Assembly (NCBI RefSeq): GCF_001650635.1
Contig: NZ_LWQU01000054.1
Span: 1-64,000 of the forward strand
Reading direction: 5' to 3'
Source of the DNA: Magnetospirillum moscoviense
GTDB lineage: Bacteria > Pseudomonadota > Alphaproteobacteria > Rhodospirillales > Magnetospirillaceae
Length of the DNA stretch: 64,000 nucleotides
Position 1 is the stretch's first letter; each line of letters starts with the position of its first letter. Made by a program: the position numbers and the translations under genes. This document shows positions 8,190-33,642 of the stretch, piece after piece. The notes beneath the pieces are model-generated. The model was not told the origin of the DNA, searched no databases, and saw nothing but the letters and a program-made list of their open reading frames with translations.

Positions 8190-8609
8190 TCAGGCGGCCT
8201 TGTCGACCAGGGCGTAAAATTCGGCCTCTTCGCGGGCGACCCGCGCCTTCAACCGGGTCAGCATGTCGCGGCTGGCGGTGACGAAGCCCACGGGGTCGCG
8301 GGCGATGGCCAGCGGGCCGGGCCACGCCTTCTTGTAGGTGTCGAAATCCTGGCCCAGATCGCCCATCTCGGCCTGGAAGCGCCGCGCGGTGTCGCGCACC
8401 TTCAGGTCGGCGTGGGCCAGGCAACTGGGGTAAAGGGTGTTGTCCTCGATGGCCAGGTGGACCGAGAATTTGCCGAACAATTCGCGCACCACCGTCGCGA
8501 CGGCGGCGGGATTGTCGGCGATGGCCGCAGCGTCCAGGTGGGTTTCCAGCCGGGCGGCGATGGCGCGCAAATCGTCGTGATGCTTGCGGTAGGTGTCGGT
8601 CTTGGGCAT
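8190..8609 (-). CDS. Hemerythrin-domain (HHE) protein
   Basis: A 139-residue four-helix protein of the HHE/hemerythrin family, which binds a di-iron centre and handles oxygen, nitric oxide or iron. Likely ligands include H10/H11, H24 and the HxxxE pair H51/E55 in SVHLAIEDNTLYP. The second half is less canonical: REEAEFYAL stands where an HxxxE motif is usual. One cysteine (C63) is present. GAGG lies 6 bases before the ATG. The upstream region has a textbook class II Crp/Fnr-type promoter (8639-8680), so expression probably follows oxygen or nitric oxide, as for known hemerythrins and YtfE/ScdA relatives. Confidence 0.85.
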   Translation of the reverse strand: MPKTDTYRKHHDDLRAIAARLETHLDAAAIADNPAAVATVVRELFGKFSVHLAIEDNTLYPSCLAHADLKVRDTARRFQAEMGDLGQDFDTYKKAWPGPLAIARDPVGFVTASRDMLTRLKARVAREEAEFYALVDKAA

Positions 8610-8638: not shown

Positions 8639-8680
8639 TTAATATCCGACAACGCAGCTGCGATAATTGACGCCAGTCAA
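8639..8680 (-). promoter_or_regulatory. Class II Crp/Fnr-type promoter of the hemerythrin gene
   Basis: A perfect palindrome TTGAC-GCCA-GTCAA (8667-8680) lies upstream of a TATTAA -10 box (8644-8639 on the minus strand). If the -10 box is read as -12 to -7, the start site falls at 8632 and the palindrome is centred at exactly -41.5, the class II activator position. The same half-sites recur at 32106-32119 beside a Crp/Fnr gene. Confidence 0.75.
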
Positions 8681-30852: not shown

Positions 30853-31617
30853 TCAGCCCTTGGCGCGCGCCAGGAAATCGCCGTTCCTGAAGCCCGGCTT
30901 GCCATAGACCAGCGGGCTTTGATCGTCGAAATTGACCACCTCCCCGCCGGCGGCGGCCAGCACGGCGTGGGCGGCGGCGGTATCCCACTCGCTGGTCGGG
31001 CCGAAACGCGGATAGAAGTCGGCCGAGCCTTCGGCGACCAGGCAGAATTTCAGGGACGAGCCGGCATTGTGCATGACCGGCTGGGCCAGCGTGGACAGGA
31101 AGGCGTTCAGTCGGTCCGGAGCCCGGTGCGAGCGCGAATCCAGCACGACGGCGCCGCTGGCCGGCAAGGGGCGGCAGCGTGCCGGCTGGCGGATGCCGTC
31201 CTTATCGACCACCGATGCGGCGCCATCGGCGCCCGACCACAGCCGGTTCAGCACCGGGGCGAACACCACCCCGGCCACTGCGCGGCCATCTTCGACCAGG
31301 CCGATATTGACGGTGAACTCGCCGTTCTTCTTGACGAATTCCTTGGTGCCGTCCAGCGGATCGACCAGCCAGAAGCGTCGGCCGACGGTGGGGATGCGGC
31401 CGGCCGCGGCCTCTTCCTCGGCGACGATGGGGATATCCGGGGTCAGGGTGCGCAATACCGGCAAGATCACCGCCTCGGCCTCGCGGTCGGCTGCGGTGAC
31501 CGGGTCGTTGGTCCCTTTCATCTCGACGGCGAAATCCTGGGCGTAGATGGCCAGGATGGCGTCACCGGCCTGGCGGGCCACCGCCTCGAGGGCCGGCAAA
31601 AGGGACGAGTAGGTCAT
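30853..31617 (-). CDS. cysQ: 3'(2'),5'-bisphosphate nucleotidase CysQ
   Basis: A 254-residue inositol-monophosphatase-fold enzyme that removes the 3' phosphate from PAP/PAPS, a by-product of sulfate assimilation and sulfotransfer. The metal sites are clear: VAEEEAA (E67-E69) and WLVDPLDGTKEF with D86 and D89, plus a C-terminal WDTAAAHA. GGAG six bases before ATG 31617 supports the start. The TsaC gene follows after 46 bases and the DsrC-like gene precedes it by 66 bases, so sulfur metabolism may link CysQ to the latter. Confidence 0.93.
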   Translation of the reverse strand: MTYSSLLPALEAVARQAGDAILAIYAQDFAVEMKGTNDPVTAADREAEAVILPVLRTLTPDIPIVAEEEAAAGRIPTVGRRFWLVDPLDGTKEFVKKNGEFTVNIGLVEDGRAVAGVVFAPVLNRLWSGADGAASVVDKDGIRQPARCRPLPASGAVVLDSRSHRAPDRLNAFLSTLAQPVMHNAGSSLKFCLVAEGSADFYPRFGPTSEWDTAAAHAVLAAAGGEVVNFDDQSPLVYGKPGFRNGDFLARAKG

Positions 31618-31683
31618 GGGGCGCTCCGAATGGGTGGGGTGGTTCTAACGGACCATCCACTCGCAGCCAAGCACAATGAACGC

Positions 31684-31989
31684 TTACCCGGTGCTCCAGG
31701 CGCGCGGGCGCTTCATGCCGGCGATCTTGCAGGCCTGCTGGACATAGCCATAGGGAAACAGCTCGAACAGGCGGTTGCGGCCGGCGCCGGTCGCGTCGGT
31801 CAGGTGCTTCATGACGTGGCGGACGTCGGGGGCGACCTGCTTTTCCTCCAGCCAGGCCCGCATGAAGGCGATCACCCGCCAATGATCCTCGGTCAATTCG
31901 ATGGCTTCGGCTTGGGCGGCCAAGCGGGCGAAATCCTCGGTCCAGTCGGCGGGGTCGACAAGGTAACCTTCGGCATCGGTGGCGGTCAT
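31684..31989 (-). CDS. DsrC/TusE-family sulfur-carrier-like protein lacking the terminal cysteine
   Basis: A 101-residue protein of the DsrC/TusE/RspA family, which carries sulfur as a persulfide or trisulfide. It shows the family core WTEDFARLAAQAEAIELTE, HWRVIAFMR and the C-terminal QACKIAGMKRPRAWSTG. The inner cysteine (C87, position CysB) is present, but the penultimate cysteine (CysA) of true DsrC is missing, since the chain ends WSTG. One-cysteine homologues are thought to be regulatory or accessory rather than sulfite-reductase partners. No dsrAB or tusBCD genes are in the window. Upstream it shares an intergenic region with a Crp/Fnr gene and two Crp/Fnr-type boxes. Confidence 0.85.
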   Translation of the reverse strand: MTATDAEGYLVDPADWTEDFARLAAQAEAIELTEDHWRVIAFMRAWLEEKQVAPDVRHVMKHLTDATGAGRNRLFELFPYGYVQQACKIAGMKRPRAWSTG

Positions 31990-32058
31990 ATCCGTCTCGC
32001 TTGTTTATGCGTTAGAACTAATTTAAACCGAGTGGGCCCCAGGTCAATCCCCGCCGTC

Positions 32059-32072
32059 TTGACGATGATCAA
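32059..32072. promoter_or_regulatory. FNR-like box TTGAC-GATG-ATCAA
   Basis: Matches the FNR/FixK consensus TTGAT-N4-ATCAA with one mismatch. Centre to centre it lies 47 bases from the second box and about 77 bases upstream of the DsrC-like start codon. Confidence 0.6.
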
Positions 32073-32088
32073 GAATTGTCGCGCTTCT

Positions 32089-32141
32089 GGGATTCTTTAC
32101 TTCGATTGACGGAAGTCAAAGTAAAGTAGTCGGGAAATCCC
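32089..32141. promoter_or_regulatory. Nested dyad with TTGAC-GGAA-GTCAA core
   Basis: The inner palindrome TTGAC-GGAA-GTCAA (32106-32119) has the same half-sites as the hemerythrin promoter box. Around it are CTTTACTT (32095-32102) with AAGTAAAG (32119-32126), and GGGATT (32089-32094) with AATCCC (32136-32141). The arms are not equally spaced, so this is an imperfect nested palindrome rather than one continuous stem. Confidence 0.65.
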
Positions 32142-32359
32142 CACATTGCCTTCTATCCTATGCGCTCTGCCGAACGCGCCGGGACCGGCCGGGTCCGATC
32201 ATCCCCCCTCAAAATATCGGACCCGGCCACCACCCTCGAATTGCCCCCTTTGCACCATCGCCTCGTCCCAATGAGCGGCAGGCCTCTTGACCGCCGTCAC
32301 ACCACCCGATGCGGGGGGTGCCGACAATGGTTGAAACGCACGACTTCCGGGGGTTAACC

Positions 32360-33091
32360 ATGGAAATCTCGACGACGCCATCTGGCGAGGCCAGGCGCAT
32401 CCATGGCGATGATTTGCAGATCATGGCGCGGGTGCCGTTGTTTGCTGGCCTGACGCCCGAGGCGCTGGTCGATATCGCCGGTCAGTCGCAGGTTTCCCGG
32501 GTTCCGCGCGGCGCCACGCTGTTTCGCCAGGGCGACGCCGCCAAGGTGCTGCATGTCCTGCTCGAGGGGCAGGTGGCGTTGATGGCCGGGGTCGAGGGCG
32601 GCGGCGAGCAGACCATGCTGGAGATTCTGGATTCAGGCGAATCCTTCATCGCCGCCGCGCTGCTGACCGGCAAGCCCTATCTGATGAGCGCCATGGCCCT
32701 GGCGCCGTGCCGGCTGATGGAAATACCGCGCGATGCGCTGCTGACCCGGCTCAGGGCCAATCCCGATCTGGCCTTGGCCATGCTGGCGTCGCTGTCGCGG
32801 CATTTCCGGCTGCTGATCCAAGAGGTCAAGGACCTCAAGCTGAAATCGGCCAGCCAGCGTCTGGCCCTTTACCTGATGGGCCTGACCCAACGTCGGCGCG
32901 GCTCGGTCACCCTGCGCCTGCCCCATAACAAAGGCCTAATCGCCGCCCGCGTCGGCGTGCGGCCGGAAACCCTGTCGCGCGCCTTCGCGCACCTGAAAGG
33001 GCAAGGCGTTGGCGTTGATGGCCAGATGGTTACCATCGCCGACCTGGCCCGATTGGGGCGCTATTGTCACGAGGGGCGTGAAATAGTCTGA
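32360..33091 (+). CDS. Crp/Fnr-family transcription regulator
   Basis: A 243-residue regulator with an N-terminal cyclic-nucleotide-binding-type domain (ARVPLFAGLTPEALVDIAGQ, FRQGDAAKVLHVLLEGQVAL), a long dimer helix and a C-terminal Crp-type winged helix (SQRLALYLMGL, then GLIAARVGVRPETLSRAFAHL). It lacks the N-terminal cysteine cluster of Fnr, so it is not a classical iron-sulfur oxygen sensor; an NNR/Dnr-like (haem, nitric oxide) or HcpR-like role is possible. ATG 32360 follows GGGGG by six bases; ATG 32327 with its own GGGGGG is an alternative. The matching TTGAC box in its upstream region suggests autoregulation. Confidence 0.9.
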   Translation: MEISTTPSGEARRIHGDDLQIMARVPLFAGLTPEALVDIAGQSQVSRVPRGATLFRQGDAAKVLHVLLEGQVALMAGVEGGGEQTMLEILDSGESFIAAALLTGKPYLMSAMALAPCRLMEIPRDALLTRLRANPDLALAMLASLSRHFRLLIQEVKDLKLKSASQRLALYLMGLTQRRRGSVTLRLPHNKGLIAARVGVRPETLSRAFAHLKGQGVGVDGQMVTIADLARLGRYCHEGREIV

Positions 33092-33195
33092 CGCTTATCC
33101 ATACGAAATGATTAAAGGCGGTTTGCAAGCTGGTCTCTCCGTTTTATAGTGGGAATCCGCGAGCCCACCCGATCGGGCAAATCAGGAGCCGCTTC

Positions 33196-33642
33196 GTGAC
33201 CCTGCGTAACTCACCCGAGACATTCGAGATCCTGCTGGTCGAGGACAATCCCGGCGACGCCCGCTTGGCCCAGGAAGCCCTGAAGGAGGGGCGGATGGCG
33301 AGCCGTCTCAAGGTGGTGGTCGACGGTGTCGAGGCCATGACCTATCTGCGCCGCGAGGGCTCGTTCGGTGACGCGCCGCGCCCGCATCTGGTGCTGCTGG
33401 ATCTGAATCTGCCCCGCAAGGACGGCCGCCAGGTGCTGGCCGAAATGAAGGCCGACCCTGAATTGCGCCGGATTCCGGTGGTGGTCCTGACCACCTCGCA
33501 GGCCGAGCAGGATGTTGGGCGTTCCTACGATCTTCACGCCAATTGCTATATCACCAAGCCGGTGGATCTCGACCGGTTCATTTCCGTCGTGCGCTCCATC
33601 GAGGAATATTGGTGCTCGGTGGTGACTTTGCCGCCCCGGTAA
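33196..33642 (+). CDS. CheY-like single-domain response regulator
   Basis: A 148-residue receiver domain of the Rcp1 type found with phytochrome-like kinases. The acidic pocket is E16/D17, the phosphorylated residue is D69 in [12 protein letters not shown], and K121 lies in CYITKPVD. There is no output domain. GTG 33196 with AGGAG seven bases upstream is the start. It is followed by the REC-PAS-PAS-GGDEF-EAL gene after a few bases (or with overlap if a GTG at 33612 is used), so both probably work in one pathway. Confidence 0.93.

Follow-up and report, generated by a model that had tools for sequence, protein, structure and literature searches.

The intergenic region between a divergent gene for a DsrC/TusE-like protein (31684-31989, minus strand; PF04358, TIGR03342) and a gene for a Crp/Fnr-family regulator (crp; 32360-33091, plus strand; Pfam PF00027 and PF13545, nearest to the DNR/FtrB-like branch) in Magnetospirillum moscoviense carries closely spaced Fnr/Dnr-type operators, and the question is which transcription unit these serve. 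A preliminary description of the window, the whole 64,000-nucleotide stretch of DNA analysed here, had placed TTGAC-GGAA-GTCAA at 32106-32119 between these two genes, with an FNR-like box 47 bases away and half-sites identical to those of a box near a hemerythrin gene. All of this is borne out. Box B (TTGACGGAAGTCAA, 32106-32119, plus strand) and box A (TTGACGATGATCAA, 32059-32072, plus strand) are exact matches 47 bp apart, are, as judged from their sequence, real Fnr/Dnr-type boxes and are predicted to act as operators, and the same half-sites recur at 8667-8680, about 64 bp upstream of the hemerythrin gene. A third box upstream of crp, box C (TTGACCGCCGTCAC, 32287-32300, plus strand), has one mismatch, and all three palindromic TTGA-N6-TCAA operators of the FNR/DNR type lie within 242 bp; box C, like the hairpin element at about 32154-32235 discussed below, had been overlooked. 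Allowing at most one mismatch, TTGACNNNNGTCAA has six matches in the window against 0.65 expected, and three or fewer in any of 100 shuffles. The window does contain the two outer inverted pairs that had been described as forming a nested dyad around box B, CTTTACTT/AAGTAAAG and GGGATT/AATCCC, but neither is kept in the aligned relatives, the comparison that the preliminary description had itself proposed, and the dyad was rejected as a regulatory unit.

The genome scan for TTGAC-N4-GTCAA that had likewise been proposed was run on the host assembly (4,164,497 bases in 207 contigs) with the reversed motif as control. Exact TTGACNNNNGTCAA sites number 7 against 1 for the control, and TTGAYNNNNRTCAA (TTGAY-N4-RTCAA) sites 18 against 1. 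Genes that have a site upstream or alongside include napD/napA, nnrS, the hemerythrin gene (8190-8609) and the gene for subunit I of a cbb3-type oxidase, further sites adjoin multihaem and nos-linked cytochrome c genes, and a related site with one mismatch is found upstream of nirS. TTGAY-N4-RTCAA is therefore both enriched and placed at anaerobic and NO-related genes and, because its sites adjoin genes of denitrification and microaerobic metabolism, the operator reads as one of the anaerobic/NO type, consistent with TTGAN6TCAA, the site used for MgFnr at the denitrification operons of M. gryphiswaldense (PMC4065386). Of the small oxygen/NO/sulfur regulon that had been suggested, the oxygen/NO part with its common operator holds in outline; control of the DsrC-like gene as the purpose of the sites is not supported.

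Upstream regions were compared for 11 crp orthologues, namely that of the window and those of 10 other genomes (55-83% identity). In 7 of these 10, all of the same genus (genomes G001-G012 belong to the genus of the window's genome), the full set of boxes A, B and C recurs. A covariance model of the segment from box B to box C was then used with strict filters to search 297 genomes sampled from the order, and matched a single place in each of 11 genomes, comprising 10 of the 13 searched genomes of the genus, the window's included, and G038, from another genus. The remaining genomes of the 297 gave no match under these filters; weak matches in G032, G042, G043 and G050 were rejected, as they came with no box and a poor or partial fit.

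In all 11 genomes box B stands at the same place before the matched element, and its central four bases read [GT]GAA in 10 of them, while the centres of boxes A and C vary. An ungapped alignment anchored on box B reveals just two fully invariant columns between the box and the predicted start of transcription, A(-11) and T(-7), in a register that places the centre of box B (32112.5) at -41.5 and that of box A at about -88.5. Both are the key positions of a -10 element of the sigma-70 type, which in the window reads CACATT (32142-32147, plus strand; positions -12 to -7). The 11 genomes share no -35 hexamer besides box B, as would be expected of an activator-dependent promoter. Operator at -41.5 and -10 element in register with it fit a class II Fnr-dependent promoter with a predicted start; FNR-activated promoters typically have their site at -41.5, and the tabulated cases include Escherichia coli fnrS at -42.5 (PMC3688515).

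Downstream of this promoter lies a predicted small RNA of about 80 nt (32154-32235, plus strand), delimited by conservation across the 11 genomes and by its fold, with an approximate 3' end. In G007 the corresponding locus, which precedes the crp orthologue, is at about 2161395-2161477 of contig C1 (minus strand). Over eight genomes, mean pairwise identity is 78% in the element, 71% in the crp coding sequence and, in the flanks, 43% between boxes A and B, 48% from box B to the -10 element and 35% from the element to crp. Its terminator-like hairpin (32187-32228) has 13 bp, with arms at 32187-32199 and 32216-32228 and a C-rich loop, CATCCCCCCTCAAAAT, at 32200-32215. When the stem was aligned by hand, pairs 1-12 were standard in 11/11 genomes, and pairs 2, 7 and 12 showed compensatory changes on both sides; pair 13 is U-A in place of A-U in two genomes and does not form in G003 and G038. 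That compensation is limited to three of the 13 pairs and one A-U/U-A swap reflects the close relationship of the 11 genomes and counts against the small-RNA reading. Folding is more stable than that of shuffled sequences (z = -4.67 for the element, and -3.5 to -5.3 in four divergent members). In every genome the loop contains at least four consecutive C followed closely by U. Upstream of the hairpin, a conserved unpaired segment, TGCCGAACG, occupies 32168-32176 (plus strand); TGCCGAAC, which the folds leave unpaired or pair only weakly, is invariant across the genomes. Most relatives have a U-rich tail 3' of the hairpin, for example TTATTTTTT in G004 and G007; the window's own hairpin is followed by ACCACCC instead of a U-run, so that termination in this genome may be weak and the RNA could run into crp. 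A small protein encoded in the element was considered and rejected, since no start codon or frame is common to the genomes and several contain stops. The element is a conserved intergenic structure with a predicted promoter and terminator of its own and no reading frame, the U-run of the terminator being absent in the window. Rfam returned no match up to E = 1 over 31000-33500, with the FnrS covariance model included, and none at gathering score in the 7.5-kb region of G007.

Promoter and element do not depend on the genes at either side. The DsrC-like gene adjoins the element in 7 of the 11 genomes, and the element is kept without it in G009, G006, G003 and G038; in two of the latter, G003 and G038, box B, the -10 element and the predicted RNA are also kept without an adjacent crp, and a response-regulator gene follows directly. 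Box B, the -10 element and the predicted RNA are the constant unit of the locus. The response-regulator gene, which in the window lies downstream of crp (33196-33642, plus strand; PF00072), was rejected as an obligate partner, as in G004 it is on a different contig from the RNA; moreover, its upstream region shows neither a box nor a hairpin like that of the element in eight further genomes inspected (three of the same genus, five from another genus in the family). In G005 the contig ends 178 nt past the RNA, and the best crp match of that genome is just 38% identical.

We consider it probable, at roughly three chances in four, that box B serves, as a class II activator site, the promoter for a trans-acting small RNA of about 80 nt (about 32154-32235, plus strand). 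Falling oxygen or NO would cause an Fnr- or Dnr-type protein to bind box B at -41.5, from where the bound activator would recruit RNA polymerase to a -10 element that lacks a good -35. The transcript would end at the GC-rich 13-bp hairpin and would probably base-pair through its C-rich loop, through the conserved unpaired 5' segment, or through both. In this reading crp would be a separate unit, served by box C. A second dimer, bound at box A some 88 bp upstream of the start, may modulate the RNA promoter; in E. coli, tandem FNR sites in upstream positions can either assist or repress. Counting against this role, the distance between boxes A and B amounts to about 4.3-4.5 helical turns, which is not an obvious phase for co-activation.

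The alternative that box A mainly serves to activate or repress the DsrC-like gene, from a position about 52-53 bp upstream of its predicted start, survives best of those considered, although we regard it as rather doubtful. A consensus scan places a possible sigma-70 promoter of this gene, TTGACC-16-TAAATT, at 32020-32047 (minus strand) with box A just upstream, and TTGACC is kept at a similar place in relatives; in G004, G005 and G007 (loci L011, L067 and L013) this -35-like TTGACC even lies within a full TTGAC-N4-GTCAA box. A position of -52, however, is not usual for an activator, and the spacing between boxes A and B also speaks against this alternative: it is 45-47 bp in 9 of the 11 genomes (69 bp in G005, with no box A found in G038), and in G009, G006 and G003, none of which has dsrC beside it, box A still lies 47 bp from box B, at odds with the control of the DsrC-like gene that had been proposed. 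In two genomes the divergent neighbour is a small DUF2795 gene and not dsrC (L048, 1751-1975, plus strand; G006, L010). The DsrC-like protein itself keeps the cysteine in QQACKIAG and ends in RAWSTG, as it does in all seven genomes in which it is encoded beside the RNA; DsrC and TusE use a penultimate cysteine, which this ending lacks.

An unlikely reading is that the element is the 5' leader of a crp mRNA starting from box B, carrying an attenuator or regulatory hairpin, with no separate small RNA. In 8 of the 11 genomes crp does follow the element on the same strand, and the lack of a U-run in the window would suit it. Against it stand the two genomes that keep the element without an adjacent crp, the U-rich tails of most relatives, and the poorly conserved stretch between element and crp, 85 to 148 nt long, in which box C precedes the crp start in 8/8 genomes that have both. 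Box C would rather make crp a unit of its own: each of the 11 crp orthologues examined has a box of this type 65-135 bp upstream of where the protein match begins, including those of G018, G013 and G021, where the RNA was not found next to crp. For this reason autoregulation of crp, as the preliminary description had it, is plausible through box C and not through box B. As a separate observation, the GGGGG at 32350-32354, at the ribosome-binding position of crp and G-rich in most genomes, is complementary to the C-rich loop of the RNA.

Similarly improbable is the scheme put forward at the outset, in which the adjacent Crp/Fnr protein binds box B and regulates both itself and the DsrC-like gene. 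In its favour are the adjacency, the presence of a box near crp orthologues and the Crp-type helix-turn-helix of the protein; yet box B and the RNA persist where crp or dsrC is missing, which removes the ground for naming the adjacent gene as the probable regulator, and box B is placed for the RNA as box C is for crp. The protein scores below cut-off with the NCBIfam FtrB model and well below it with the FNR model. It matches the DNR structure 3dkw with 100 bits over nearly its full length, compared with 38 bits for FNR, no DNR family model being reached, and it has no N-terminal cysteines and so no [4Fe-4S] cluster motif of an FNR-type oxygen sensor. Other candidates are at hand in the same genome, which encodes two tandem pairs of Dnr/FtrB-like Crp/Fnr genes (L063, 2384-3996, and L062, 1486-3042, both minus strand), one of them directly adjoining nirS. 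A further protein, Fnr-like and with a CxxC at its N-terminus, is encoded next to a ccoG-like gene. The number of NO-type regulators in this genome is unusual. Finally, that the hairpin is an untranscribed DNA-level element or repeat is very improbable, since, for all that it is a strong inverted repeat, it occurs as a single copy per genome (on which ground a repeat element was rejected), conservation of its 5' part beyond the inverted repeat matches that of the stem, its distance from the invariant promoter hardly varies, and U-rich tails follow it.

In place of the nested dyad with its own regulator and dsrC as target, the locus is best described as a class II promoter that drives a conserved small RNA, and the element is best read as a previously undescribed RNA of about 80 bases, strongly conserved in Magnetospirillum and activated anaerobically or by NO. 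Beyond this, it is a tentative possibility that the element represents a new family of small RNAs, at genus level, in magnetic bacteria, which a Crp/Fnr protein that senses NO or oxygen would switch on via tandem boxes and which would repress, by way of the C-rich loop, G-rich ribosome-binding sites, possibly including that of crp; GGGG(G) precedes the crp start in the genomes seen. A crude seed search for targets with the complement of the conserved unpaired segment (CGTTCGGCAG) gave matches not above control, and duplex folding of the RNA with the crp leader gave long unspecific pairings only and was discarded. If true, a new RNA family would bring denitrification and metabolism at low oxygen, which magnetite formation requires, under post-transcriptional control.

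Low oxygen is a requirement for magnetosome formation, which MgFnr connects with denitrification (PMC4065386), and in the searchable Magnetospirillum literature regulation is described at the level of transcription factors; a genome-wide study of start sites reports one small RNA, BjrC80, identified through Rfam (PMC9549626). A conserved small RNA under Fnr/Dnr control would add a post-transcriptional arm to the low-oxygen and denitrification network, and the reading is directly testable in M. gryphiswaldense. Several known systems invite comparison. C-rich pairing motifs are known from RoxS/RsaE of the Firmicutes. This NO-regulated small RNA controls redox genes (PMC4409812) but belongs to another phylum with other regulators and offers an analogy only. 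The sRNA-29 of Paracoccus denitrificans is, like the present candidate, an alphaproteobacterial small RNA tied to denitrification (PMC6686037); unlike it, sRNA-29 represses NirS and acts via a GntR-type regulator, and the two are likened by description and not by promoter or sequence. Closer in design is the FnrS-like RNA of gonococci, a short non-coding transcript preceded by an FNR class II box and a -10 element and described as probably equivalent to FnrS in function (PMC3032703); expression is documented for the gonococcal RNA, whereas the Magnetospirillum RNA is predicted, and no sequence relation is claimed. FnrS of E. coli and the Enterobacteriaceae shares with our element the small intergenic RNA and the class II FNR-type box at about -41.5 (PMC3032703, PMC3688515), while the Magnetospirillum element is set apart by the lack of an Rfam match, a second box about 47 bp upstream, the C-rich terminal loop and an activator that may be of the Dnr type. 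On these comparisons the predicted RNA resembles FnrS in promoter design and not in sequence, and is not a member of the FnrS sequence family; if the reading is true, the FnrS design would have a further independent example, in a different bacterial class.
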